Shown: positions 22,947-37,730 of the stretch, in pieces | Position numbering within the stretch: position 1 is the stretch's first letter | Layout of the letters: each line of letters begins with the position of its first letter | Origin: Alphaproteobacteria bacterium | GTDB lineage: Bacteria > Pseudomonadota > Alphaproteobacteria > Micavibrionales > UBA2020 | Assembly: GCA_016794125.1 (NCBI GenBank) | Contig: JAEUKT010000003.1 | Location: 1 to 64,000, forward strand | DNA length: 64,000 bases | Direction of reading: 5' to 3' | Notes under the pieces: model-generated | Database searches by the model: none | What the model was told of the DNA's origin: nothing | What the model saw: only the letters and a program-made list of their open reading frames with translations | Translations under genes and position numbers: made by a program

Positions 22947-24194
22947 TTAAAATTCTAGCTTCACGCCACGCGCAGGCTTGTCGGCAAGCTTCTCTTCGGC
23001 CTTCGGCTCAAAAACGGCAAGGCTGATCTTGTAATCCGCTGGCAGGACGGGTGCGATGACTTCTTTGACCCATGTCGTGAATTTTTCGGTACTGCCCATC
23101 TCCTTGCGCAGGGTCTGCAGCAGCTTTTCGATCTGGAAGTCGCGCGTGGGCATCTGCGGATACTGATAGATGTCAAGCGGCAGATAGCCCTTTTCGTTTT
23201 CCTGCAGCAGCAGCTTCTTGGCTAGGTCGATCGCCACATCAGTGCCGAGCAACCGATCGAAGGCAGCGAGCATGGGTGACAAACTGTCGGTAAAGGTGCG
23301 TGAATCCTTAGGCGTGCTAAGGAGGTCGCTCGCCACCCATTTGCGGTGCATGGGCGTGTTTCCCTTGGCATCCGTTGCGGATAGTAGCTCGAATATGCCG
23401 TCGGCTTTCTGCTGCGGCGTGGCAGCGTCGCCCTTCAATTGTATCTCTAGCAGGCGAAAAAATGCCTTGCCGGGGAAATGCTCGGTCAGCAGCGTGCCGC
23501 GATATACGACAGGATCGGCGCTATCGTAAAAGTCTTTCATCTTCGCTAGTTGGCCTTTCGAATAGTCGCTCAGGTCGGTTTTCTTCTGTTGCTCGGCGAT
23601 ATAGGTCGCAATTGCCGGACGCAGTTCCGCGAGCGTTTCGCGTAAGGCTGCGGCCGTGACGGGATGGTACATATCGGTCGTCAGCGCATCGACTCTGGCG
23701 TACTCTTTCGAATCCCGGGCAAGAACGCTCCGCACGTTCTGGAAGTCGTAGGAAATGCCCGCGTCAAAACTACCGAGCGGCTCGGAAAGGATGCTCTTCA
23801 TTATCGCATCAGCTTTTTCCTCTCCCGCCCATTTGTAGAGTATGTCGAGGATTGGCTCGTGAGCCTCGCGATGGCCACCGTATTGAAGCGATTTGTGGAT
23901 CACTGACTGGCCGAGATTATTGGTCGCGGTTAGCAGCGCGACGCGCTTTGCCGCATCCGGCTCCGCTTTCTCGAGCGCAGCCAGCGCTGCGGTGGTGAAT
24001 TCCTTGTGCCTGTTATGCCCGATGTCACTGAAATAGCCGTCGACCATGTACGACAGGCCGCTGTCTGGTACGTCCTTCGACATCGGCGTCAGCAGCCATT
24101 TTCTGCCTACATCCGTTTCGAAAACTGCTGTCACTTGTTCGGGTGATTTCAAGTCTGATAAAAGGTCTACGAGAATTCTATTGGGAAGCGACAT
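22947..24194 (-). CDS. Unknown 415-residue protein between tRNA-Leu repeats
   Basis: Family not recognised. The protein is mostly helical with no signal peptide or membrane segment. Two segments resemble each other: LLTATNNLGQSVIHKS (about 101-116) and LLSATDAKGNTPMHRK (about 266-281). Both recall the start of ankyrin repeats (DxxGxTPLH), so a divergent ankyrin-like or solenoid protein is possible. The tail is rich in Lys and Glu. It is the only clear gene between the two tRNA-Leu 3' fragments and is transcribed leftward, against the chemotaxis region beyond. A cargo or effector role is inferred from location only. Confidence 0.7.
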   Translation of the reverse strand: MSLPNRILVDLLSDLKSPEQVTAVFETDVGRKWLLTPMSKDVPDSGLSYMVDGYFSDIGHNRHKEFTTAALAALEKAEPDAAKRVALLTATNNLGQSVIHKSLQYGGHREAHEPILDILYKWAGEEKADAIMKSILSEPLGSFDAGISYDFQNVRSVLARDSKEYARVDALTTDMYHPVTAAALRETLAELRPAIATYIAEQQKKTDLSDYSKGQLAKMKDFYDSADPVVYRGTLLTEHFPGKAFFRLLEIQLKGDAATPQQKADGIFELLSATDAKGNTPMHRKWVASDLLSTPKDSRTFTDSLSPMLAAFDRLLGTDVAIDLAKKLLLQENEKGYLPLDIYQYPQMPTRDFQIEKLLQTLRKEMGSTEKFTTWVKEVIAPVLPADYKISLAVFEPKAEEKLADKPARGVKLEF

Positions 24195-24668: not shown

Positions 24669-25088
24669 TCAGGCTTTGCCAAAGCGCCCGCGCTGCTCCA
24701 GCCATTTGACAACTTTTTCGATATGGTCGGCTAGGGTATTGGCCTTGAACGGCTTGACGATGTAAGACGTTGCCCCTGATTTCAATGCCTCCTGAATATA
24801 CCGCTGGCCGTCTTCACCGGATACGATCACGAAGGCGACATTGTCGTAGGCGCGGTCTTCGCGGTATTGCTGCATCAGTGCAACGCCGCTTTTGCCTGTC
24901 ATGCGCCAGTCCAGGAAAAGTACGTCGTAGCCCGATGCCGACATTTTCTCCTCCGCCTCGGCTGCGCTTGAAGCGGTATCGATCTGCGTGATGCCGAGGT
25001 CGCCCAGCATCTGTTGCAGCGCCTTGATGACCACGCGGCTGTCATCGACGATCATGTATTTCAGTTGTTTTGCTTTATCGTCTGTCAT
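24669..25088 (-). CDS. CheY-like single-domain response regulator
   Basis: A 139-residue receiver domain. The acidic pair is in MIVDDSRVV, the phospho-acceptor Asp in VLFLDWRMTGKSG, and the conserved Lys in YIVKPF. There is no output domain. It overlaps the REC-REC-GGDEF gene by TCAT/ATGA, so translation is coupled. Its closest relative in the window is the regulator at 31623 (shared FLDW, GxSGV, DR-YD-V and a KW-E-R ending), which lies at the other end of the chemotaxis genes. The target is unknown; a chemotaxis or c-di-GMP link is likely from position. Confidence 0.88.
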   Translation of the reverse strand: MTDDKAKQLKYMIVDDSRVVIKALQQMLGDLGITQIDTASSAAEAEEKMSASGYDVLFLDWRMTGKSGVALMQQYREDRAYDNVAFVIVSGEDGQRYIQEALKSGATSYIVKPFKANTLADHIEKVVKWLEQRGRFGKA

Positions 25089-26377
25089 TTCCCGGTTTCT
25101 TTTTTCCTGATTTCGGACAGTTCCACCCTGTTACGTCCGTTCTTTTTTGCGCGTGTCAGCAGGTCGTCTGCTTCCTTCATCATCGCTTCCAGGCTTTCGC
25201 GCGTGCCGTGGCAAACGCCGAAGCTGGCCGTGATCTTGAGCGGGCGCCCGTTGTCGTTCAGCTCCAGCGTCTCGACCGCGTTTCGGATACGCTCGAAAAA
25301 CTGCACAATACTGTCATCCGCTAGGTTTACCGCAAGGATGGCGAAGGAATCAAGCCCGTAGCGCGCCACTATATCTGTCTGGCGGCACTGGCGGCGCAGC
25401 AGGTCGGCCACGCCTTTCAGAACGATATCGCCAGCCTTGTGCCCGTATGTGTCATTGATCTGCTTGATGAAATCCAAGTCGATCATGGCGGCGGTCAGGC
25501 GCAATTGATCGCGTTTGGTACTTGAAAACAGGCCTGATCCGGCCTCGAAGAAAAAGCGCCGGTTGTGGATGCCCGTCAGCGTATCGCGGATGCCCATATC
25601 CTTCAGCCTGCTGAAGAGGTCGAGCATGCGCAGGTTTTGCGATACGCGGCAGAAAAACTCTTCGGGCAGGAACGGTTTTTTCAGGAAGTCGTTCGCGCCC
25701 AGCTTGATGAACTCGGCCGACAGCGCGCCGCGGCTGACGCCTGATGCGATGCCGATGATCGACAACTGGTCGCGGTCGAATTTCTTGCGTATTTCCTGCA
25801 CCAGTTCCACGCCGTTCATGCCGGGCATGAAATAATCGGTGATGACAAGGCGGATGTCGGGCTGCGCCTCCAGCATATCCAGCGCTTCCTGTGCTGTGCC
25901 GGCCTCGATCACCTGGCACTGGTAACCGGTCAGCAGCGCGCGCACATGCATCCGGCTCGTTTTTGAATCGTCCACGACCAGTATCTTGGTTTCGCGGTTG
26001 CGGTGCACACGCTCCACGATATCCACAAGGTAACTGAGGGAGGAGGGCGTGTCTTTAATCACGTAATCCATGACGTTCCAGTCGAGGATCATCTTGCGCA
26101 GGTCTTCGGAATAAAAACTGGTGAATACGATGCAGGGTACGCGTTTCTGCATCAGGTATTCTGCCGCTTCGCCTTCGGAACTGTCGGGCAGAATGATATC
26201 GACAAGCGCCAGGTGGAATTTCGTCTGGCCGCTCTCCAGCAGGGCGCGGGCGGCGGCGAGGGTTTCGACCGTCACAACTTCCGCGCCGATGCGTTCCACA
26301 ATGGCTTTTTTGACGATGCGTGAAAAGAACCTGGAATCATCGACGATCAGAATGCGGGTGGCATCTTGGATATCCAT
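25085..26377 (-). CDS. REC-REC-GGDEF protein with degenerate active site (PleD-like layout)
   Basis: Encodes 430 residues. REC1 (about 9-125) has VDDSR and a likely phospho-Asp60 in LALVDIILPD. REC2 (about 131-250) has VDDSK and Asp181 in VITDYFMPGMNG. The GGDEF domain (about 262-425) has the fold segments RDTLTGIHNRRFF and DLDFIKQINDTYGHKAGD. The signature, however, reads GLDSF (341-345) instead of GGDEF, losing the second Gly and the catalytic Glu. The inhibitory-site motif RQTD (332-335) is kept. It may therefore bind c-di-GMP or GTP without making c-di-GMP. It is divergent from cheA. Confidence 0.9.
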   Translation of the reverse strand: MDIQDATRILIVDDSRFFSRIVKKAIVERIGAEVVTVETLAAARALLESGQTKFHLALVDIILPDSSEGEAAEYLMQKRVPCIVFTSFYSEDLRKMILDWNVMDYVIKDTPSSLSYLVDIVERVHRNRETKILVVDDSKTSRMHVRALLTGYQCQVIEAGTAQEALDMLEAQPDIRLVITDYFMPGMNGVELVQEIRKKFDRDQLSIIGIASGVSRGALSAEFIKLGANDFLKKPFLPEEFFCRVSQNLRMLDLFSRLKDMGIRDTLTGIHNRRFFFEAGSGLFSSTKRDQLRLTAAMIDLDFIKQINDTYGHKAGDIVLKGVADLLRRQCRQTDIVARYGLDSFAILAVNLADDSIVQFFERIRNAVETLELNDNGRPLKITASFGVCHGTRESLEAMMKEADDLLTRAKKNGRNRVELSEIRKKETGK

Positions 26378-26568: not shown

Positions 26569-26641
26569 TGATACGATATAAGTGGTGGTTGCCGTCAATG
26601 GGCAGCCGCGTCCGATCGGGCTCCCAAGGACTTCTCGCACC

Positions 26642-28804
26642 ATGGATGAAATCCTCTCTGAATTTCTGGCCGAAACGAATGAAGGGCTTGCCGAGCTCGA
26701 TAATGCGCTTGTACTGTTCGAGCGCAGTCCCGATGACGAAGAACTGCTGGCAAAAATTTTCCGCGTCTTTCATACAATCAAGGGAAGCTGCGGCTTTATC
26801 GGTCTTGAACGCCTCGGCAGCATTGCCCACCGCGCAGAAGACATTCTGGATCTGGTGCGTGAAGGTAAACTGGATATCACCCCTGATTTCATCACGGCGC
26901 TGCTTGGCGCTGTTGACCGGATCCGTACGCTGACGGCCGAGCTGGAAAAAAACGGACAGGAACCAAACGGCGAAGACGAAGATATCTTGTCCCTGATGAA
27001 CGATATTGCCGGTGCGCTGTCTGAAAAAGACGCGCCGCCAGCAGAGCAGGAAGATGCCGGCAGTGACGGAAACGACCAGTCGTGGTCATCAGCAGCAAAT
27101 GATTTTTCATCAGCCGCAAAACCCGAAGAAGGCCGCAAGACGAATGCATCGGAAGCCGACGCGGCGCAGCAGACCCTGCGCGTTAACGTCGATCTGCTGG
27201 AAAGCATGATGACGGTCGTGAGCGAACTGGTGTTGACCCGCAACCAGCTGTTGCAGACCGCGCGCACGACTAAAAATACGATGTTTAATACGCCGTTGCA
27301 GCGGCTTAACCAGGTTGTCACCGAATTGCAGGAAAGCGTCATGAAGACGCGTATGCAGCCCATCGGAAATGCATGGTCCAAAATGCCGCGTATCGTGCGG
27401 GATGTGTGTCATGAGCTGGGCAAGAAAATCGACCTTGAAATGCGCGGGCAGGATACCGAGTTGGACCGGCAGGTGCTCGAAATGATCAAGGATCCCCTGA
27501 TGCACATGGTGCGCAACGCCGCCGACCATGGCATCGAAGACCCGTTTGAGCGAGTCAAGGTCGGCAAGCCCGAAACTGGGCATATCGTGCTGAATGCTTA
27601 CCATCAGGGCGGGCATATCATCATCCAGATTTCGGATGACGGGCGCGGGCTTGCGCTGAACAAGATCAAGGGCAAGGCCTTGCAGGCGGGATGGGCAAGC
27701 CAAGAACAGCTGAATAAACTTTCCCCGCAGCAGATACAGCAATTTATATTCCGTCCGGGTTTTTCGACGGCAGAACGCGTCACATCGGTTTCAGGGCGCG
27801 GGGTCGGCATGGATGTTGTGCGCACCAACATCCAGAAAATCGGCGGCACCGTCGAAATGACCTCGACCGAGGGCAGGGGGATGACTTTCACGATAAATAT
27901 CCCTCTTACGCTTGCTATTGTGCCGGCATTGATTATCGAGGTTGCGGGCGCACGCTTTGCCTTTCCGCAGCTTGCCGTTTCCGAACTGGTGATGGTCGGC
28001 AAAGGAACGGGCATGGAGATCGAGACGATCAACGGCACGCCTGTACTGCGCTTGCGCGATACTTTGCTGCCGCTGATATATCTTGGCGATTACCTGAAGG
28101 TCTGGGACAAACGCAAAGAGCATGCGCATGATGACGGAGAGCTTCGCTATGTCGTCGTCACGCGCGCTGCGGGCATACCTTATGGTATCGTCGTCGATCA
28201 TGTTCTCGACATGGAGGAAATTGTCGTCAAGCCGACTTCCAGCAACCTGAAGGAAGTCCATATTTTTTCCGGCAACACGATTTTGGGCGACGGCACGGTG
28301 ATAATGATCCTCGATCCGTCGCAACTGTTGCAGGCGGCCAACCTGCGCGAAGATTTAACGCACCAGCATCTTGCTGATCATAAACATCTGCTAGAAACGA
28401 CCGCAGCTGAAAACATGCTTCTGCTTTTCAAGGCCGGTGATAAAACGCCGAAAGCGGCACCTTTGAAAATGGTGTCGCGCCTGCGTGAAATACGTTCTGC
28501 CGATATAGAACTGTCGAATGGCAGGCCTGTGTTGCAGCATTTGGGCCGCCTGATGCCGGTTTTTCGATTTGACGACAAACCCGTCAGCGGAGAGAATGCG
28601 TTCCTGATCATTTTTGAACATGACGGACATCATTTCGGCCTACTGGTCGATCAGGTGCTGGATATCGCCACTTACAACGGGTCGCTCGCTGAAAGCAGTG
28701 CGGATATGCTGCTGGATACAATTATCCTCAACCAGCAATCGACAGATGTGGTCAATCCTTTGTGGTACATGTCGTCCGTTCATCAGTCGGCAGGTGGCGT
28801 GTGA
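26642..28804 (+). CDS. cheA: Chemotaxis histidine kinase CheA
   Basis: Encodes 720 residues from the ATG at 26642, which follows AAGGA; the frame extends upstream but without homology. The HPt domain has the phospho-His in FHTIKGSC (His44). Next come a dimerisation domain (LRVNVDLLESMMTVVSELVL), then the ATPase with N-box HMVRNAADHGIE, DDGRG and GRGVGMDVV. The C-terminus holds a CheW-like domain and a second CheW-like segment, which accounts for its size. The classical P2 CheY-binding domain is replaced by a short acidic linker. It passes phosphate to CheY and CheB. The stop overlaps cheW (TGATG). Confidence 0.95.
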   Translation: MDEILSEFLAETNEGLAELDNALVLFERSPDDEELLAKIFRVFHTIKGSCGFIGLERLGSIAHRAEDILDLVREGKLDITPDFITALLGAVDRIRTLTAELEKNGQEPNGEDEDILSLMNDIAGALSEKDAPPAEQEDAGSDGNDQSWSSAANDFSSAAKPEEGRKTNASEADAAQQTLRVNVDLLESMMTVVSELVLTRNQLLQTARTTKNTMFNTPLQRLNQVVTELQESVMKTRMQPIGNAWSKMPRIVRDVCHELGKKIDLEMRGQDTELDRQVLEMIKDPLMHMVRNAADHGIEDPFERVKVGKPETGHIVLNAYHQGGHIIIQISDDGRGLALNKIKGKALQAGWASQEQLNKLSPQQIQQFIFRPGFSTAERVTSVSGRGVGMDVVRTNIQKIGGTVEMTSTEGRGMTFTINIPLTLAIVPALIIEVAGARFAFPQLAVSELVMVGKGTGMEIETINGTPVLRLRDTLLPLIYLGDYLKVWDKRKEHAHDDGELRYVVVTRAAGIPYGIVVDHVLDMEEIVVKPTSSNLKEVHIFSGNTILGDGTVIMILDPSQLLQAANLREDLTHQHLADHKHLLETTAAENMLLLFKAGDKTPKAAPLKMVSRLREIRSADIELSNGRPVLQHLGRLMPVFRFDDKPVSGENAFLIIFEHDGHHFGLLVDQVLDIATYNGSLAESSADMLLDTIILNQQSTDVVNPLWYMSSVHQSAGGV

Positions 28805-29271
28805 TGGATACAGCCGCTGATAAAATCGCGACGATGGACGGGGTAGAGCAGGTGCTGGCCGTGTATCTTGGCAGCGAAATGTTCGGCATTCCGATTGCCC
28901 AGATGCAGGGGGTGCTTGAAACCCTGCCTCTGACCTTTGTGCCGCTCGCGCCACCGGCTGTGCGAGGTGTCATGAACTTGCGGGGGCGTATCGTCACGGC
29001 CGTCGATCTGCGCACTTTGCTGGGGCTTGCCGAACGCCCCGGCGTGGAGCAGGCGAATATGAGCGTCGTGATCGAAAACGGTGGCGAACTTTTCAGCCTG
29101 CTCGTTGATAGCGTGGGTGATGTCTACGCAATACCCCTTGCCAATATCGAAGAGCCACCGCTCACCATGCCTGAATCGATGAAGCATGTATCCTCCGGAG
29201 TTTTTCCGTTGCGCGACCGCATCATGATACTTTTGAAGCCATCCGTTTTTCTGCAAGTAAACGAGGAGTGA
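28804..29271 (+). CDS. cheW: Chemotaxis adaptor CheW
   Basis: Encodes 155 residues from the ATG that overlaps the cheA stop. It is a single CheW SH3-like double barrel with PAVRGVMNLRGRIVTAVDLR, the family's best-conserved segment, and a closing DRIMILLKPSVFL strand. It couples CheA to chemoreceptor tips. The cytoplasmic assembly partners CheA and one chemoreceptor are encoded nearby. Confidence 0.93.
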   Translation: MDTAADKIATMDGVEQVLAVYLGSEMFGIPIAQMQGVLETLPLTFVPLAPPAVRGVMNLRGRIVTAVDLRTLLGLAERPGVEQANMSVVIENGGELFSLLVDSVGDVYAIPLANIEEPPLTMPESMKHVSSGVFPLRDRIMILLKPSVFLQVNEE

Positions 29272-29278
29272 CGAGCAC

Positions 29279-29653
29279 ATGAAAACCTGCATGATCGTCG
29301 ATGACAGTGCGGTGGTGCGCAAGCTTGTGCGCAACATCCTCGAACCGCTGCAGTTCGATTGCTCTGATGCCAAAAACGGTGAAATCGCGCTGACGGCTTG
29401 CAAGACCTCGATGCCTGAACTGATTATGCTCGACTGGAATATGCCCGTCATGGACGGCATGGAGTTCCTGAAACAATTGCGCCAGACGCCGGGCGGCGAC
29501 AAACCTGTCGTTTTCTTCTGCACATCGGAATGCAGCATCGAGCATATCAAGGCGGCGATGGCGGCGGGCGCGACGGATTATGTGATGAAGCCGTTCGACA
29601 GCGAAATCGTCGTCGGCAAGCTTGTTCAGAACGGTATTATTTCGGCAGTGTAA
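29279..29653 (+). CDS. cheY: Chemotaxis response regulator CheY
   Basis: A 124-residue receiver with DDSAVVRK, phospho-Asp in LIMLDWNMPVMDG, CTSE in place of the usual TA(E) segment and MKPF carrying the conserved Lys. Position seven bases after cheW and before cheB marks it as the pathway's main output regulator. GAGGAG lies 12 to 17 bases upstream. No CheZ or flagellar motor genes are in the window. Confidence 0.92.
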   Translation: MKTCMIVDDSAVVRKLVRNILEPLQFDCSDAKNGEIALTACKTSMPELIMLDWNMPVMDGMEFLKQLRQTPGGDKPVVFFCTSECSIEHIKAAMAAGATDYVMKPFDSEIVVGKLVQNGIISAV

Positions 29654-29663
29654 AGGCGTACGG

Positions 29664-30746
29664 ATGCGCAAGGCGGCCACAGAAAAGAAACCGGTAGGCG
29701 TCCTGATCGTGGACGATTCCAAGGTTACACGCGCTGTCATCGGTAAAATATTGCAGGAAGCTGCGCCTCAGGTAAAAATTGTAGGCTATGCGGAGGATGG
29801 CGCAAGTGCGTTAAAGGCGCTCGATGTGTGTGACCCGGATATCGTGATCCTCGACCTTGCGATGCCCAGTATGGACGGTCTTACGGCGCTGCCTCTGATC
29901 CTTCAAAAAAAACCGCGCACACGTATTGTCGTCTGTTCCTCTTCAAGCGCACCCGGTGCCGAGATATCCGTGCGGGCGCTGTCTCTTGGCGCGACTGCTT
30001 GCGTCGCGAAGCCGGCCGGCACCAAAAATCCGAAGGCTATCGCCGATTTCAAATCTGCGCTGAAGCAGGCTGTGTTGGGACTTTGTGATGTGCCGCTTGC
30101 CAAGCTGACTGGAGAAACAGCGCGCGCCGCAGCAGCCCCCGACCTGTCGTCGTTCCGGCCCAAGCTGGTCGCTATCGGCAGTTCGACCGGCGGCCCAAAT
30201 GCTGTCATATCTTTGCTTAAGGAAATGGGAAAGCTGCCTGTTCCGGTAGTGATCACGCAGCATATGATGGAAATGTTCATTACAATTCTTGCCCGCCAGA
30301 TTACTCAGGAAACAGGTATAGAATGCATCGAAGGCAGTGATGGCCTGTTGCTAGAGCCTGGACGTATTTATCTTGCGGCTGGTGGTCGCCACATGGTGCT
30401 CAAAAAATCCGGCCACCGCGTGACGATCGGTCTGAACGACGGTCCGCCGGAAAATTTCTGCAAACCGTCTGTCGATGTGATGCTGCGCAGCGCCGTCGAG
30501 GTATATGGCGGCGACATTATGGCCGTGATCCTGACAGGGATGGGCAAGGATGGCCTTGCCGGTAGCGAAATCCTTGCTCAGGCAGGCGGTCGTATCGTCG
30601 TTCAGGACCAGGAATCGTCGATTGTCTGGGGCATGCCAGGCAGCGTTGCGAATGCGGGCCTGGCGAGCGCCATTTTGCCCGTGTCTGGCCTTGCGCGCGC
30701 TGTGCGGAGCACGTTGCTGGACGTAATGCCGCGAGGTGAATCATGA
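29664..30746 (+). CDS. cheB: Chemoreceptor glutamate methylesterase CheB
   Basis: Encodes 360 residues from the ATG at 29664 preceded by AAAGG. The receiver domain (phospho-Asp in VILDLAMPSMDG) joins the methylesterase domain with catalytic Ser in IGSSTGGPN, His in ITQHM and Asp in LTGMGKDG. Once phosphorylated by CheA it removes receptor methyl groups, opposing CheR. It overlaps cheR by four bases (ATGA). Confidence 0.95.
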   Translation: MRKAATEKKPVGVLIVDDSKVTRAVIGKILQEAAPQVKIVGYAEDGASALKALDVCDPDIVILDLAMPSMDGLTALPLILQKKPRTRIVVCSSSSAPGAEISVRALSLGATACVAKPAGTKNPKAIADFKSALKQAVLGLCDVPLAKLTGETARAAAAPDLSSFRPKLVAIGSSTGGPNAVISLLKEMGKLPVPVVITQHMMEMFITILARQITQETGIECIEGSDGLLLEPGRIYLAAGGRHMVLKKSGHRVTIGLNDGPPENFCKPSVDVMLRSAVEVYGGDIMAVILTGMGKDGLAGSEILAQAGGRIVVQDQESSIVWGMPGSVANAGLASAILPVSGLARAVRSTLLDVMPRGES

Positions 30747-31588
30747 ACCTCGATGATTTCAAGTTTTATCAAAAGATGCTGATTGACCATTCGGGTCTGT
30801 CGCTGACACAGGACAAGACATATTTGCTGACCACAAGGCTGGATCCCGTCGCGCGCAGCATGGAATTTGAAAAGCTTGACGAATTTACAAATCATTTGCG
30901 ATTAAACCTCGACCCACGCACCATTGCACTGGTCGTGCAAGCCATGGCGACCAAGGAAACCTCTTTCTTCCGCGACAGCCTGCCCTTTACTCATCTTAAA
31001 AGCAGCATTCTGCCCGGGCTTGCAAAAAAAAATGCCGCGACCAAAACTATCCGCATCTGGTCTGCGGCCTGCTCGACGGGGCAGGAACCGTATTCTATAG
31101 CCATGGTCGCACGCGAATTTCTGCAGGCGTATCCCGGCTGGTCGGTGCAGATTGTCGCGACAGATATTGCCGATGACGCGCTGGCACAGGCGCAGGAAGG
31201 GTTGTATTCGCATTTCGATATCCAGCGCGGCCTGACCATGAAACTGATTCTTGATCATTTCACCATGGAAAACACAAAATGGCGCGTGCAGGAAGACCTG
31301 AAGCAGATGATAAGGTTTTCGAAATTCAACCTGCTGAAACCGATGGAGCCGATGGGGCGTTTTGACGTTATTTTCTGCAGGAATGTGCTGATTTATTTCG
31401 ATACGCCGACAAAAAAATCTGTTCTCGACAGGCTGGGCGAGCGGTTATATCCGGATGGCTACCTGCTGTTGGGAGCATGTGAATCGTCGATCGGCTTGAA
31501 TACCAGGCTAAGGCTCTGTCCCGATATGCCGGGAGTTCATATGGCAGCAGCGCCTGTGCCCGTAGCACAAAAAGAAAACGTGAAATGA
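30743..31588 (+). CDS. cheR: Chemoreceptor methyltransferase CheR
   Basis: Encodes 281 residues: an N-terminal helical domain, then a SAM-binding fold with WSAACSTGQEPYSIAM and FDVIFCRNVLIYF. It methylates receptor glutamates for adaptation. The chemoreceptor encoded at 32055 lacks the C-terminal NWETF-type CheR-docking peptide, so CheR must act without that tether on it. It is coupled to cheB by overlap. Confidence 0.95.
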   Translation: MNLDDFKFYQKMLIDHSGLSLTQDKTYLLTTRLDPVARSMEFEKLDEFTNHLRLNLDPRTIALVVQAMATKETSFFRDSLPFTHLKSSILPGLAKKNAATKTIRIWSAACSTGQEPYSIAMVAREFLQAYPGWSVQIVATDIADDALAQAQEGLYSHFDIQRGLTMKLILDHFTMENTKWRVQEDLKQMIRFSKFNLLKPMEPMGRFDVIFCRNVLIYFDTPTKKSVLDRLGERLYPDGYLLLGACESSIGLNTRLRLCPDMPGVHMAAAPVPVAQKENVK

Positions 31589-31622
31589 CAGTTCGAGATG
31601 AATTGAACCGATGGAGTAACGC

Positions 31623-32048
31623 ATGCCTAAAAGTAAAATCCCCTATTTAAGGGTATTGATCGTCGATGACAGCCGCATGCAGCGATCGCTGATGCATGAA
31701 ATGCTGGCCAGCTTCGGCTTCAAACATATCGACGAGGCGGAAAATTCAGGCGATGCGAACGAGAAAATGGACGCTTTGCGATATGACATCGTTTTTCTTG
31801 ACTGGGTCATGCCGGGCAGGAGCGGCGTGTCGCTGATGGAGGAGTGGCGCGGCGACCGGCGTTACGACGATGTCGCGATGTTTGTGGTGTCTATGCAGGA
31901 CGACAAATCCATGATAGCCGGCGCAGTCAAGGCAGGCGCGCTCAGTTATATCATCAAGCCTGTTACCGAAGGCGTCTTGCTGATAAACGTGGAAAAAGCC
32001 TTGAAGTGGATCGACGAGCGCCGCGCAGCCCGCGAAAACGAAGAGTGA
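31623..32048 (+). CDS. CheY-like single-domain response regulator, second copy
   Basis: A 141-residue receiver with VDDSRMQRS, phospho-Asp in IVFLDWVMPGRSG, VVSMQDD and IIKP with the conserved Lys. It resembles the regulator at 24669 more than the CheY at 29279. A TGGAG ribosome site is at the correct distance. It ends the rightward chemotaxis set, six bases from the convergent chemoreceptor gene. It may be a phosphate sink or a separate output. Confidence 0.88.
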   Translation: MPKSKIPYLRVLIVDDSRMQRSLMHEMLASFGFKHIDEAENSGDANEKMDALRYDIVFLDWVMPGRSGVSLMEEWRGDRRYDDVAMFVVSMQDDKSMIAGAVKAGALSYIIKPVTEGVLLINVEKALKWIDERRAARENEE

Positions 32049-32054
32049 CGGAAA

Positions 32055-33647
32055 TTATGCCGAGCGCACGTTGCCGAGGAATTTCAAGACTTCCGCGCGC
32101 AGTACATCCGCTTCCTTGAGCAGTTTTTTGGACTCATCCAGCATCGCTGTCGATGCTTCACCCGTCACTTCAGCCGCCTTCATGACTGCGGTAATGTTGT
32201 GAGAAACGTCTGATGTGCCATGTGCTGCTTCGGTCACGTTGCGTGTGATTTCATTTGTCGATGCATCCTGTTCGACCACGGCTGAACTGATGGTCGTCTG
32301 GATAAGGTTGCAGCGTTCGATGATTTTTGTGATGCTTTCGATGGCTGCAACCGCAGCATGCGTCGATTGCTGCATTTCCGAAATTTGGGTGCGGATATCT
32401 TCGGTCGCCTTCGCAGTCTGACTGGCGAGGTTTTTGACTTCCGATGCGACAACAGCAAATCCCTTGCCGGCTTCGCCTGCGCGTGCGGCCTCGATGGTCG
32501 CGTTCAGAGCCAGAAGGTTGGTTTGTGCCGCGATATGATTGATCAGGTTGACGACATCGCCGATGTTCTGGGCTGCAGTCGAAAGGACTTTCATGCGGTC
32601 GTTCGTCTGGCGCGCCTGGTTCGAGATATCACCGAAAACGGCGGTCGCTTCCTGCACCAGCATCGAGATTTGCGAGATGGAGGTCGCAAGGTCGCTGGCT
32701 GAGTTCGTCACCGTCTGCACGTTGGTCGAAGCTTCGAACGCGCCTGATGACACGGATGTCGCCTGCCGCAGCGTTTCCTTGGCGGTATTGCAGAGGTTGC
32801 CGGCCGAAGTGGTGAGGTTGCCGGATGCGACCGAAACAGAATCCACGCATTTCAGGATGTTCTTCTCGAAATTTTCAGAGAGGGACAGGAGGAGCGAGCG
32901 GCGGTCTTCCTCTGCTGCCTGCCGGATAGAGGCAAGGCCTTTGACCTGTTCAAGGTTTTGCGCGATTGCCTTTTGCATGCCGGCAAGCGCGCCCAGCAAT
33001 TGCGCGATTTCTGTGAGGCCGCGCACGGGAATGTCGTTATCCAGCTTGCCGTCGGCAATCTTTTTTGCGATAGAAACGCTGTAACGCAGCTGCGGGATCG
33101 TGGCGCGGATGATGCAGACGCTCAAAATTGCTGCCAGCACGATAGCGCAGAGCAGGATGATGCCCATTGAATCCCGCGTTTTCGCAATTTTTTCAGCGGC
33201 CGCGTCGATGGAAGTGACACGGTCGGCCTGATAATTCCCGACGAGCCGCGCAAGGTCCTTGTCGATAATAGTGGCATCCGCTTGAAGGTTGGTGCTTTTG
33301 GGAAGGGCAGACAGCTTGTCCTGAAGATCGAGGATAAGGGAAGTTTCCTTGTCGTTCGATGCCCATTCCTTGGCCTGGTCGAGTATCGCCTTGATCGATT
33401 CAATATCGTCCAGCGACGATTGATCGGTCAGCGTGGCTTCAGTCCCTTGATGGCTGAGCATCAGGCTTTTGAAACCCAGCTGCGCTGCGTTCGAATAATG
33501 GACGCCTTCAAAGTTGCGGTCGTATAGTGAGATAACCTCGCCGACTGTTTTAGCTTGCGTATTGATCAGGTCATATCCGACACCGCCCAGGATGATCATA
33601 AAAGCGAGTGAGTTGAAGATGATCAGGTTGCGGAAGGAAAAACGCAT
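32055..33647 (-). CDS. Methyl-accepting chemotaxis protein
   Basis: Encodes 530 residues. TM1 (about 8-25), a periplasmic helical bundle (about 26-157), TM2 (about 158-178), a HAMP domain (about 178-232) and a long signalling hairpin ending KFLGNVRSA follow one another. The hairpin tip is around [20 protein letters not shown]. The periplasmic part looks like a small four-helix sensor without a clear ligand pocket. It lies 38 bases downstream of a YfiR-family gene on the same strand, so the two are probably one operon. There is no CheR-docking pentapeptide. Confidence 0.92.
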
Positions 33648-33685
33648 TTTAAGTCAGCCTTTTGTTAGGTAAGTGCGGGACGCCC

Positions 33686-34228
33686 TTACCGGATGTTCAT
33701 GTTGGCAAGCGACAGCAGCTTGGAGCTGATGGAAAGGCCTGTCACGCGTACCTGCGACAAAGCAACCCAGATGCCGATCTTGCCGTCTTCAAGTTTGAAT
33801 TCCACCATGCCACCCTGGTTTGAGAAACCGGATATATCGCTCATGGTCAGCACGGGCGTGCCCTTGATCTGTGCCAGGATCGTCTTTAAATTCCTGTTCT
33901 CGGATCCCGATACAAACAGGGCGTTGCAGGCCTTCACATCGCTGTCAGCGCTGCTGAGGTGGCGGATGGTGATTTTCTTGTCGTTAACCTTGCGGCTTTT
34001 GATAGGTTCCAGGTTGGCACCAAACGGATCCTGCCCGACCACGCATACCGTAAAACTTTCGTCCATCACGCCCGAGGGCCAGGTCGTGAGTTGCGTAAAA
34101 TTATAGATATAGGCCGAGATGAGCGTATATTTGCTATCGACGTTTTCCGCGCCGGCACGCGTGGACATGACTGCCCACGAAATGGCCATAATAATGAATA
34201 CCGGAAAATAATGGAATAAGGGTCTCAT
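33686..34228 (-). CDS. YfiR-family periplasmic protein (DUF4154)
   Basis: Encodes 180 residues. A signal peptide or N-terminal membrane segment (to about 27) is followed by the YfiR core KYTLISAYIYNFTQLTTWP, VCVVGQDPFG and LTMSDISGF. In Pseudomonas, YfiR is a periplasmic repressor of the diguanylate cyclase YfiN. Here no YfiN is adjacent. The downstream partner is a chemoreceptor with a periplasmic domain, and a TonB-dependent receptor is divergently encoded. YfiR may act on that chemoreceptor; this is inference. Confidence 0.85.
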   Translation of the reverse strand: MRPLFHYFPVFIIMAISWAVMSTRAGAENVDSKYTLISAYIYNFTQLTTWPSGVMDESFTVCVVGQDPFGANLEPIKSRKVNDKKITIRHLSSADSDVKACNALFVSGSENRNLKTILAQIKGTPVLTMSDISGFSNQGGMVEFKLEDGKIGIWVALSQVRVTGLSISSKLLSLANMNIR

Positions 34229-34406
34229 ACACCTATTAAAACTTCAACTGTGCCGCAGGTCAACTTCATTCCCCGCTTTTCAATCTATAGCACCGGCGGT
34301 TTCCAGAAACGGAGACTGTATCGTTGCGGTGTTATGCCGTTAAATTATCCCTTTGCAAAGGGCAGGGGAGAATGGACTATACTTTTAGAAAAGCGGGGCC
34401 AAGAGT

Positions 34407-36413
34407 TTGTTGCGACACAGTCATATACTGCCACTTTGTTTAGCTGCCGCCCTGCTGGTGATAACGGCGCAGGCGCAGGCACAGACGTTGTCGGCTGCCG
34501 ACCTGATGGACATGCCGCTTGAAAAGCTTGTCGAGGTCGAAGTCTTGGTCACCGGCGCCTCGAAATACGCCGAGAAAGCAAGCGAGTCACCGTCAATCGT
34601 CGAAATCATCACAGCCGATGATATCCGCCATTACGGCTACCGCACATTGGGCGACGCGCTGAACGGATTGCATGGCATATATACCAGCAGCGATCGCAAC
34701 TATAATTCGCTGGGAACCCGCGGGTTCATCATGACCGGCTATTCAAGTTCACGCGTGCTTATTATGATAGATGGCCGGCGCATGAATGAAAACGTCTATG
34801 ATGCCGCGTATGTTGGCGAAGAATTCATGCTCGATATGGCGCTGATCGACCACATCGAGTATATTCCCGGGCCGGGATCGTCTATTTATGGCGCAAACGC
34901 GATGATGGGCGTTGTAAACGTCGTCACGAAAAAGGGCTCCGACTTCAATGGGACGCAGGTTGAAGCGGGCATCGGCAGTTTTAATACCGGTGTTGCGCGC
35001 ACGACATACGGCAAAAGCTTCTCTAACGGCGCGAATGTGCTTATATCCGCTTCCGGTTATACGTCCGGCGGGCAGGAAAACCTTTACTATCCCGAGTTTG
35101 ATACTCCGCTCGAAAACAACGGTATCGCGCACAATCTGGATGATGAGCATTCGAAGCGGCTGTATGCAAAGGTGCAAAAAGGCGATGTCACTTACGTGGC
35201 CGGCTATCAGAGCCGTTACAAGAAAGTGCCTACCGCTCCCTATGTCACCGAATTTAACGTACAGGGCAACGACACGGTCGATACGCAGGCCTATGCCGAC
35301 ATACGCTACAACAAACAGCTCAACGACAAAAACAGCATCGAATTGCGCAGCTATGTGCATTCCTATGATTCACAATTGCAATATCCGTATGACTTTTTTG
35401 GCCCCTATATCCTGACGAGCTCTTATAACGGGCAATGGGCCGGTGCCGAAGCGACATTGGTCAGCACGGCTTTTGACCGCCACAAAATCGTTGTGGGAGC
35501 CGAGGTTCAATACGACTTTAACCAGCAGTTGTACGATTACGACATTTTCGGGGTTTATCAGGATACCAATCGCGGCGGTTTCAGAAGCGGCCTGTTTGCG
35601 CAGGATTCTTACCAGATACTGGACAACCTGACTTTGAGCGCCGGCCTGAGGCTTGATCAGCATCATATGATCGAGAATGTGCAATTAAACCCGCGTATCG
35701 GTCTTATCTGGAACCCCAAACCGTCAACGACGATCAAGCTGCTATACGGCTCTGCCTTCCGTGCGCCGAACGTGTACGAGCGTGATTACGATGCCTATAC
35801 CTCATGGACAGCCAATCCGGATAACCAGGAGGAGCATATCAAGAACTATGAAGCGGTGGCGGAGTGGCGCGGACCCAACGGGTACAAAGTCAACGGTTCT
35901 CTGTTTTATAACGTTTTCACCGATGTCCTGAACAAAAATTATGATTCACTGAGCCCCGACTATCACAAATATACAAACACCGGTAACCTCAAATCTGCCG
36001 GTATGGAATTGGGTGCCGAGAAAAAATGGGATAACGGCCGGGAAATCAAGCTATCTTATAACCATACGGAATACCTTGAGCATACCGGCACGGCCTGGGG
36101 CGCAGTGGACGCGCCGAAAGATGTCGCCAAGCTGCGTTACATGCAACCATTGTTTGCTGACAGGTTCAAACTTGCCGCTGAACATATTTTCGTAGGGCAT
36201 CGTAAGACTCTCTATTACAGGACGGAAGACCATTACAATCTGGTTAACCTGAACCTGACTGCCGATAACTGGTTTTTGGGTGCTGATTATTCCCTGGGCA
36301 TCTACAACCTTTTAGGCGGCGAACGCAACATGATTGGACCTGCGTTCACCGATCAGGACGTGATTCCGATGAATGGACGCAGCCTGATGTTTATCGTCAG
36401 GAAAACCTTCTGA
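34407..36413 (+). CDS. TonB-dependent outer-membrane receptor
   Basis: Encodes 668 residues. A signal peptide (to AQAQAQTLSA) leads to a plug domain with SPSIVEIITADDIRHYGYRT and GVVNVVTKKGSDF, then a 22-strand-type barrel ending in an aromatic residue (VRKTF). The frame has a stop just upstream and no ATG, so a TTG (34407 or 34410) after AAGAG must start it. The ligand is unknown; the plug is of the siderophore/vitamin type. Pairing with a divergent YfiR gene suggests a shared envelope-signalling role. A classical TonB box is not obvious. Confidence 0.88.
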   Translation: MLRHSHILPLCLAAALLVITAQAQAQTLSAADLMDMPLEKLVEVEVLVTGASKYAEKASESPSIVEIITADDIRHYGYRTLGDALNGLHGIYTSSDRNYNSLGTRGFIMTGYSSSRVLIMIDGRRMNENVYDAAYVGEEFMLDMALIDHIEYIPGPGSSIYGANAMMGVVNVVTKKGSDFNGTQVEAGIGSFNTGVARTTYGKSFSNGANVLISASGYTSGGQENLYYPEFDTPLENNGIAHNLDDEHSKRLYAKVQKGDVTYVAGYQSRYKKVPTAPYVTEFNVQGNDTVDTQAYADIRYNKQLNDKNSIELRSYVHSYDSQLQYPYDFFGPYILTSSYNGQWAGAEATLVSTAFDRHKIVVGAEVQYDFNQQLYDYDIFGVYQDTNRGGFRSGLFAQDSYQILDNLTLSAGLRLDQHHMIENVQLNPRIGLIWNPKPSTTIKLLYGSAFRAPNVYERDYDAYTSWTANPDNQEEHIKNYEAVAEWRGPNGYKVNGSLFYNVFTDVLNKNYDSLSPDYHKYTNTGNLKSAGMELGAEKKWDNGREIKLSYNHTEYLEHTGTAWGAVDAPKDVAKLRYMQPLFADRFKLAAEHIFVGHRKTLYYRTEDHYNLVNLNLTADNWFLGADYSLGIYNLLGGERNMIGPAFTDQDVIPMNGRSLMFIVRKTF

Positions 36414-36476: not shown

Positions 36477-37730
36477 ATGTTGGGTTTCTTCAAGAAAATT
36501 TTTGCTGACGAACCTGTCAGCTACGAGACACAAAAGAGAATGCTGGACAGCGGGGAACCGCAACAGCTGCTCGAGTTGGCGCGGAACGAAAAAACGCTGC
36601 CCGAAATCCTTTATCTGCTGGCCGGCAACCAAAGCGATGCTGTACGCACTGCGGTCGCGGCGAATAAATCAACGCCTGTTCATGCGGCCGCGATTATCGC
36701 GAAAGATAAAAACGCAGATGTGCGTCTGCTGCTGGCATCGCGCGTAGCACGTCTGCTGCCGTCGCTGACAGGCCCGGAACAGGCGCAGCTATACGCCTTT
36801 GCTGTGCAGGCGCTCGGCACGCTGGTGCAGGACGAGGTGACGCAGGTGCGTAAGGCGCTGTCCGACGCCTTGCGTGACTACGCAAAAGCGCCGCCCGAGA
36901 TTGTTGCGCGTCTGGCCCGTGACGTCGAGCGCGAAGTAGCAGAGCCAATTTTACGTTTCTGTGTGGCGCTGGCGGACGAGGATTTACTGGATATTCTATC
37001 GAACCATCCCGCATCATGGGTCGTGAACACGATTGCCGAGCGCCAATATATAAATGAACAGCTGGCAAACGCGATCATCGACACGAACGATATATCGGCC
37101 ATCGGCACCCTGTTGAAAAACCCTGTTGCGGCCATCGAGACCGAAAAGCTTTTCGAAATCGTCGAGCGTGCGCGCGAATACCCGGAGTGGCACCGGCCGA
37201 TTGCGCTCCGCCGTGAATTATCCGCTCAGATGGCGCACCGTTTATCCGGTTTCGTGGACAAGGCAGTGCTTGAAGTCCTTGAAAAACGAAGTGATTTTGA
37301 TCCTGAAACACGTCAGGCTGTCGCCGATATCGTGAAACGTCGCATCGCCTTCGCCAACGAAAGCCCGACGGAAGAAGCAGCTGCACGCGTCGAGCGTTAC
37401 GCCCGCGAAAAGCGCCTGACGCCCGAAACGATCCAGGATGCCATGATGTGGCATGACGCCGAGTTCGCGACGCTGGCGATTGCGTATCTTTCGGCCATTC
37501 ACCCGCAGGTTTTGCGTCGCATGATCGAGACGCACAAGCCCAAACCTGTGGTCGCTTTCTGCCGCAAGGCAAACCTTCCGGTGCGGATGGCGGTTGAGGT
37601 TCAGCGTTACCTCGCCAAAGTACCCCTCAGGGAAATCATGTACGCCAAGCAGGGCACGGATTACCCGTTGAATGACGACGAGGTTAAATGGCAGCTGGAG
37701 TTTTTCGGCGTGCCTGCCAGCCTGCCATAA
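36477..37730 (+). CDS. DUF2336-family protein
   Basis: Encodes 417 residues, all-helical and HEAT-like, with the DUF2336 pattern (EPILRFCVALADEDLLDIL, HPASWVVNTIAERQ, VEVQRYLAKVPL). The family is common in Alphaproteobacteria and its molecular role is not established. The ATG at 36477 follows AAGGGC. It stands between the TonB receptor and the arginine operon and looks independently transcribed. Confidence 0.85.
   Translation: MLGFFKKIFADEPVSYETQKRMLDSGEPQQLLELARNEKTLPEILYLLAGNQSDAVRTAVAANKSTPVHAAAIIAKDKNADVRLLLASRVARLLPSLTGPEQAQLYAFAVQALGTLVQDEVTQVRKALSDALRDYAKAPPEIVARLARDVEREVAEPILRFCVALADEDLLDILSNHPASWVVNTIAERQYINEQLANAIIDTNDISAIGTLLKNPVAAIETEKLFEIVERAREYPEWHRPIALRRELSAQMAHRLSGFVDKAVLEVLEKRSDFDPETRQAVADIVKRRIAFANESPTEEAAARVERYAREKRLTPETIQDAMMWHDAEFATLAIAYLSAIHPQVLRRMIETHKPKPVVAFCRKANLPVRMAVEVQRYLAKVPLREIMYAKQGTDYPLNDDEVKWQLEFFGVPASLP

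Follow-up and report, generated by a model that had tools for sequence, protein, structure and literature searches.

What does a YfiR-family protein do when the gene that follows it encodes a chemoreceptor? In Pseudomonas, YfiR is described as the repressor of YfiN (PMC3375315). The question arises from a locus in the window analysed here, a stretch of 64,000 nucleotides that is part of a 3.16-Mb alphaproteobacterial genome. Both genes lie on the minus strand, so that YfiR (33686-34228, 180 amino acids) is upstream of the chemoreceptor (32055-33647, 530 amino acids) despite its higher coordinates. The 38-base gap between them (33648-33685, minus strand) is nearly identical in sequence in a sister species (G124, discussed below), and a consensus scan found no terminator-like site on its minus strand. 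A TonB-dependent receptor (34407-36413, plus strand, 668 amino acids from a TTG start, with the Plug and beta-barrel domains PF07715 and PF00593) is divergent from YfiR across a 178-base intergenic region (34229-34406) where promoters may lie. Coordinates and Pfam matches confirm the first-pass annotation on both points, the closely spaced YfiR–chemoreceptor tandem and the divergent TonB receptor. The pair is flanked by this receptor and by a che operon; no further co-directional gene follows it, and the putative YfiR–MCP operon contains no gene for a YfiB lipoprotein. The next gene after the TonB receptor, in the same orientation, encodes a DUF2336 protein (36477-37730) that is SpbR-like by NCBIfam, with a score under the cut-off.

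The upstream protein matches the YfiR/HmsC-like domain PF13689 (DUF4154; E = 7.1e-39, 133.6 bits against a cut-off of 24.9), and its hydrophobic N-terminus looks by eye like a signal peptide. Its NCBIfam scores are below the cut-offs both for YfiR_like_TOL0243 (E = 2.8e-30, 105.3 bits, cut-off 125) and for sequest_YfiR (38.1 bits, cut-off 85), and by these profile scores we class it as a member of the family and an equivalog of neither. The best NCBIfam match of the TonB receptor is TonB_dep_TOL0244 (E = 1.5e-38), far under its cut-off. The NCBIfam model pairs named after TOL_0243 and TOL_0244 indicate that annotation already records a YfiR–TonB receptor association; literature searches for DUF4154 or YfiR with TonB returned nothing, or unrelated papers.

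The chemoreceptor gene ends tail to tail with the che operon, 6 bases away. This operon (26582-32048, plus strand) encodes CheA (26582-28804; Hpt, H-kinase_dim, HATPase_c and CheW domains; orthologues 96% identical in G124 and 86% in G127, another related genome), CheW (28762-29271, an ORF with orthologues in the same place in G124 and G127, which suggest a start near 28801), a CheY-like receiver protein of 124 amino acids (29279-29653, assigned from its sequence and an orthologue in the G127 cluster), CheB (29622-30746, REC plus methylesterase, PF01339, E = 1.9e-52, with a true start maybe slightly downstream), CheR (30743-31588, PF01739, E = 3.4e-56) and a CheY-like response regulator (31623-32048, PF00072, E = 2.1e-22). 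Divergent from cheA, on the minus strand, is a REC-REC-GGDEF protein (25085-26377; two PF00072 domains and PF00990), for which CbrR is the top NCBIfam match (E = 2.4e-75, a score under the cut-off). Its GGDEF signature reads GLDSF, degenerate relative to an intact GG[D/E]EF, in the window and in both the G124 and G127 orthologues. Adjoining this gene on the same strand is a stand-alone receiver protein (24669-25088; NCBIfam CheY, E = 6.1e-22, below the cut-off), the G127 orthologue of which adjoins the same REC-REC-GGDEF gene. A 415-amino-acid protein beside the receiver genes (22947-24194) matches nothing in NCBIfam at E 0.01 and nothing in Pfam below E 0.02.

The genome has two CheA loci. 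The second che cluster (C4) is near genes for a FliI/EscN-type ATPase and a ChpT-like phosphotransferase, from which we infer that it is probably the flagellar one. The cluster in the window is probably accessory; among the family che loci looked at, no genome apart from its own, G124 and G127 has a cluster with this gene content.

This setting brings up the first rival explanation, that YfiR and the chemoreceptor are neighbours and not partners. The chemoreceptor would be the che cluster's own receptor and would sense a small molecule directly through its four-helix bundle, the TonB receptor and YfiR would form a separate or left-over unit, and YfiR would act through an unrecognised membrane protein elsewhere. 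A full che operon ending so close by would indeed be a natural home for a chemoreceptor without YfiR. The strands argue the other way: the chemoreceptor is on the YfiR strand, a short gap downstream, and convergent with the che operon, and by position it therefore belongs to YfiR's transcription unit rather than to that of the che operon. We consider a mere neighbourhood, and with it an unrecognised partner of YfiR elsewhere, rather unlikely, but enough of a contender to be carried through the evidence that follows.

In the sister species G124 (locus L034, contig JADYYV010000344.1), the order is TonB receptor, YfiR, chemoreceptor, receiver protein and CheR, with the short gap kept and the TonB receptor divergent. 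The chemoreceptors of the two species are identical at 522 of 530 residues and the YfiR proteins at 165 of 180, with dS values of 0.51 for YfiR and 0.62 for the MCP. Mature YfiR has a dN/dS of 0.035, and the ratio is 0.011 over the chemoreceptor, 0.028 over its periplasmic portion and 0.041 over as much of the TonB receptor as is available; the YfiR–chemoreceptor arrangement in this species is under strong purifying selection. G127 is more favourable to a neighbours-only reading. There, a contig end carries only the C-terminal 104 residues of the chemoreceptor (98% identity), adjoined by the same che cluster and REC-REC-GGDEF gene; any YfiR side would be beyond the edge, and no YfiR was found in this genome, which is 77% complete. 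The complete pair was thus seen in two closely related species only, the window's and G124.

Two further genomes of the same genus, G123 and G125 (each 99% complete, with contamination of 8% and 5%), have YfiR proteins 56% and 52% identical to that of the window. In both, YfiR is followed by a CHASE8-HAMP-PAS-kinase-receiver-Hpt protein and then by a protein with a C-terminal receiver; its length had raised the suspicion that the phosphate-type stress regulator PhyR was the partner of the kinase, and this was dropped when Pfam and NCBIfam showed just the C-terminal receiver domain. G125 has two TonB receptors divergent from YfiR, which share 51-52% identity with the one in the window. Neither genome has a CheA at E <= 1e-30 or a relative of the window chemoreceptor at E <= 1e-20. 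Comparison of these loci with those of the window and G124 indicates that, within the genus, the input pair goes with a kinase in some genomes and with a chemoreceptor in others, with four genomes being too few to make this a rule. The same-genus contigs carry the label Alphaproteobacteria MAGs. A search with the chemoreceptor's sensor region through 135 genomes of the order gave convincing matches only in the window genome and G124, with six others at E 0.01-0.08; viral contigs, scanned with the full-length protein, yielded a single weak match.

For a wider view, we surveyed the neighbours of YfiR. Loci were drawn from five overlapping genome samples, in which PF13689 was present in 24 of 142, 21 of 385, 94 of 398, 19 of 48 and 57 of 369 genomes, and from a contig search with YfiR. 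ORFs weaker than E 1e-4 to a purpose-built model were dropped, and collapsing identical YfiR domains reduced 314 YfiR-like ORFs to 232 distinct YfiR. A gene was counted as directly downstream if it was on the same strand with a gap of -150 to 400 bases. By this measure the commonest partner was a CHASE8 histidine kinase (105 of 232), and a CHASE8 diguanylate cyclase followed in 32, which does not bear out the earlier description of the chemoreceptor as standing in place of a diguanylate cyclase, the type of partner that YfiR has in Pseudomonas. Other direct partners were CHASE8 proteins without a recognised output (11), kinases with another sensor (11) and GGDEF proteins with another sensor (2); YfiR was fused with a kinase in 12, the partner was unrecognised in 51, and the locus edge cut it off in 5. 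A TonB receptor was within 1 kb of YfiR in 148 of the 232, so that the receptor is not special to this locus and forms with YfiR a common input cassette. At four loci (L037, L044, L050 and L046) the YfiR partners are 462-474 amino acids long; in the first three, CHASE8 is the sole Pfam domain, and the C-terminal 250 residues are perhaps an unrecognised output domain.

A chemoreceptor was the direct partner in only 3 of the 232 (the window, G124 and G1115; an earlier, smaller tally of 123 YfiR had G124 as the one case). The pairing put forward for a count across genomes is thus kept in the sister species and rare overall. In the third case (L318, G1115:C28, 2-3434), a TonB receptor, YfiR and a CHASE8-HAMP-MCP protein are encoded in a row, with the start of the last overlapping the YfiR stop by 4 bases. 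This YfiR is 32% identical to that of the window and comes from a genome of another class, and L318 is an independent YfiR–chemoreceptor case, in which a YfiN-type sensor has a chemoreceptor output. Its occurrence in an unrelated lineage counts against a chance neighbourhood in the window. Three other candidates (L341, L189 and L350) were rejected as direct partners because a CHASE8 kinase directly follows YfiR, and at L205, L135 and L078 the chemoreceptor is further off or a fragment. A chemoreceptor is nevertheless just upstream of YfiR on the same strand at L341 and in the neighbourhood at L189 and L350, and these three are possible further links between a YfiR module and a chemoreceptor.

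The contig search returned the three same-genus loci (G124, G123 and G125) and nine outside the genus, labelled Bacteroidetes/Bacteroidales, Marinifilum/Prolixibacteraceae or Ignavibacteria. Eight of these nine non-alphaproteobacterial loci encode a YfiR–kinase fusion, and in the ninth the locus breaks off. At L282 and L284-L290, all outside Proteobacteria, the YfiR–histidine kinase fusion mostly has a TonB receptor just upstream and receivers downstream. Fusion to a kinase beside a TonB receptor in most of the outside loci ties YfiR to its neighbouring signal transducer.

If the chemoreceptor is that transducer here, its sensor is not of the usual kind. From hydropathy and AlphaFold2, the protein is predicted to consist of TM1, a periplasmic four-helix bundle, TM2, a HAMP-like stretch (23.7 bits, just below the cut-off of 25) and the MCP signalling domain (PF00015, E = 3e-32; 112.3 bits against a cut-off of 34.6). 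The N-terminal 190 residues have no Pfam sensor match better than E 0.15, and a Pfam scan to E 10 of the chemoreceptor gave no CHASE8 match. A single-sequence AlphaFold2 model of residues 1-240 has four helices with a mean pLDDT of 73, and block values of 76-94 across residues 41-140. The small periplasmic bundle read from the sequence at the outset is tentatively supported by this model and by the lack of a Pfam sensor match. The best Foldseek matches are the helical bundles of PcaY_PP, QseE with QseG, NarQ, KinB, Tsr and Tar, none of them at E <= 0.001; VIA-align gave Z-scores of 11-14, at which helical bundles may match by their common arrangement.

Descent of this sensor from CHASE8 was considered and rejected. 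An hhalign comparison with 115 CHASE8 sequences gave a probability of 2% with a single TM helix aligned, a weak test in that the chemoreceptor profile is effectively one sequence. Three other chemoreceptors, run as controls, had probabilities of 58.7, 23.7 and 56.9, each on 24-36 columns at the template end, and because they scored higher the low score of the window protein is not the artefact of a dead test. The AlphaFold2 model of CHASE8 (40 sequences, mean pLDDT 89.5) is alpha/beta and matches WalK, a LapD-type domain and CitA sensors, whereas the window model is all-helical. The sensor is thus not CHASE8 by sequence or by predicted fold, and any contact with YfiR would have to differ from the YfiN contact: without CHASE8 similarity, the known YfiR docking surface is missing. 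The absence of CHASE8, like the resemblance to the small-molecule-binding domains of PcaY_PP, Tsr and Tar, is what a che receptor unconnected with YfiR would look like. A helical partner of YfiR other than CHASE8 does have precedents in this order, since three of the kinases with another sensor, when checked, had NIT-like helical sensors (one below the Pfam cut-off).

One short motif may bear on docking. Malone et al. 2012 (PMC3375315) name AAVVF as the YfiN motif for YfiR binding. The chemoreceptor has a look-alike, AQLGF, at residues 55-59, where the first predicted helix is about to end (AQLAF in G124). Of 5000 shuffles of the periplasmic part, 5.6% had such a motif at any position and 0.5% had it at a comparable one, figures to be read with the motif having been picked after the sequence was seen. 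Its distance from TM1 is 36, a little beyond that of most CHASE8 proteins, for which 30 of the 34 values listed are 25-34. We regard AQLGF as only a lead to a YfiR-binding motif.

The rest of the genome also bears on who the partner is. It encodes one YfiR and two chemoreceptors, and neither a CHASE8 protein at E <= 0.001 nor an NIT protein at E <= 0.1 was detected, which makes the window chemoreceptor the best candidate partner of YfiR. A YfiR kept under such strong purifying selection, in a genome with no detectable CHASE8 or NIT partner, is also hard to square with a left-over unit. Co-orientation, the short gap, conservation in the sister species, the tail-to-tail placement of the chemoreceptor relative to the che operon and the lack of CHASE8 and NIT proteins all lead us to view YfiR and the chemoreceptor as very probably one transcription unit (with presumed co-transcription) and one signalling unit. 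Of the proposal that YfiR passes an envelope or ligand state to chemotaxis, the single unit stands on strand, gap, conservation in G124 and the absence of CHASE8 and NIT; the original framing was too strong.

The locus is best read as an output-swapped member of known TonB receptor–YfiR signalling, conserved in a narrow clade. The specific reading that we prefer, and consider more likely than not, is a trans-envelope unit in which the TonB receptor and YfiR cassette has been combined with a chemoreceptor, in the place of a CHASE8 kinase or diguanylate cyclase. The signal would run from the TonB receptor to YfiR, the chemoreceptor and CheA. An outer-membrane receptor that is occupied, or pulled by TonB, would alter how periplasmic YfiR is held through a putative contact; YfiR would then bind or leave the four-helix-bundle sensor, much like YfiR on YfiN or a binding protein on Tar; and the chemoreceptor would shift CheA activity, subject to CheR/CheB adaptation, with phosphate passing on to the receivers encoded in the accessory che cluster next door. 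In this scheme we infer both contacts (YfiR with the chemoreceptor and the TonB receptor with YfiR), the sign, the ligand and the output regulator, as we do co-transcription.

The sign could be the opposite. YfiR and the chemoreceptor may be coupled with YfiR as a ligand-dependent activator, a co-receptor like maltose-binding protein for Tar, and not as a repressor released by the TonB receptor. The fold matches include helical-bundle sensors known to be engaged by partner proteins (QseE bound to its lipoprotein partner QseG, and the LytS–XylFII complex), and the CHASE8-type repressor surface is absent. These matches are weak for a helical bundle (no Foldseek E <= 0.001; Z 11-12), and Pseudomonas YfiR represses its partner as described in PMC3375315, so that we find an activator distinctly improbable.

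As for the output of the preferred trans-envelope unit, the REC-REC-GGDEF protein suggests c-di-GMP, with the receiver proteins of the cluster as alternative outputs. Cyclase activity is doubtful given the GLDSF signature in all three species that have the protein, and conservation of this degenerate signature argues against an ordinary cyclase and for a constrained other role. A bolder version, which we judge unlikely, is a Yfi/chemosensory hybrid in which the TonB receptor would signal through YfiR, by a new docking mode, to the four-helix-bundle chemoreceptor, and the array would control not (only) flagella but the REC-REC-GGDEF protein, with its GLDSF motif making it a nucleotide-binding effector and no ordinary cyclase.

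If the trans-envelope unit is real, YfiR would be a general periplasmic adaptor, not bound to the CHASE8 surface, through which the state of an outer-membrane receptor reaches a kinase, a cyclase or a chemosensory array. Chemotaxis could then sense a compound bound to the TonB receptor without its entry into the periplasm. The arrangement suggests a chemotaxis-type pathway that takes its input from the outer membrane, and one genus offers the natural comparison: G123 and G125 with a CHASE8 kinase and no CheA versus the window and G124 with a chemoreceptor and no detectable CHASE8.

The partnership had been thought undescribed. Malone et al. 2012 (PMC3375315) call the YfiR–YfiN core modular and report that the YfiN GGDEF is swapped for GGDEF-EAL pairs, Hpt domains or kinases, and one sentence of their Discussion mentions MCP domains in its place, so that an MCP output as such is on record. 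Titles and the starts of abstracts found with YfiR and chemoreceptor or methyl-accepting chemotaxis contain no TonB receptor–YfiR–chemoreceptor unit. What looks new is the non-CHASE8 chemoreceptor partner with its predicted four-helix-bundle sensor, set beside an accessory che cluster whose REC-REC-GGDEF protein is degenerate.

The closest known systems differ in several ways. In YfiBNR of Pseudomonas aeruginosa, as here, the gene for a periplasmic YfiR accompanies that for an inner-membrane transducer, and there is a link to an outer-membrane component. Residues Cys62 and Cys101 of the YfiR in the window fall opposite cysteines when aligned to the solved YfiR, whose second (C-terminal) pair is unmatched in the alignment. 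The window transducer, unlike YfiN, is a chemoreceptor lacking both CHASE8 and GGDEF, and the outer-membrane component is a TonB receptor rather than the YfiB lipoprotein. In the YfiN variants with MCP output mentioned by Malone et al. 2012 (PMC3375315), GGDEF is replaced behind a PAS-like sensor. L318 shares the chemoreceptor directly after YfiR and the TonB receptor before it but keeps its CHASE8 sensor, whereas the window chemoreceptor has another. The TonB receptor–YfiR–CHASE8 histidine kinase modules, of which G123 and G125 have the same-genus form, use the same two input proteins; the window has a chemoreceptor and che cluster for their kinase and response regulator, and its YfiR and TonB receptor score below the cut-offs of the TOL0243/TOL0244 models. 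Wsp and other alternative-function chemosensory systems combine a chemoreceptor and CheA/W/B/R with an adjoining REC-GGDEF-type protein; the window differs in its GLDSF signature and in the proposed input via YfiR. Finally, in Tar with maltose-binding protein, LytS–XylFII and QseE–QseG, a four-helix-bundle sensor is engaged by a periplasmic or lipoprotein partner, and in the window the putative partner would be of the YfiR family and have a link to a TonB receptor.
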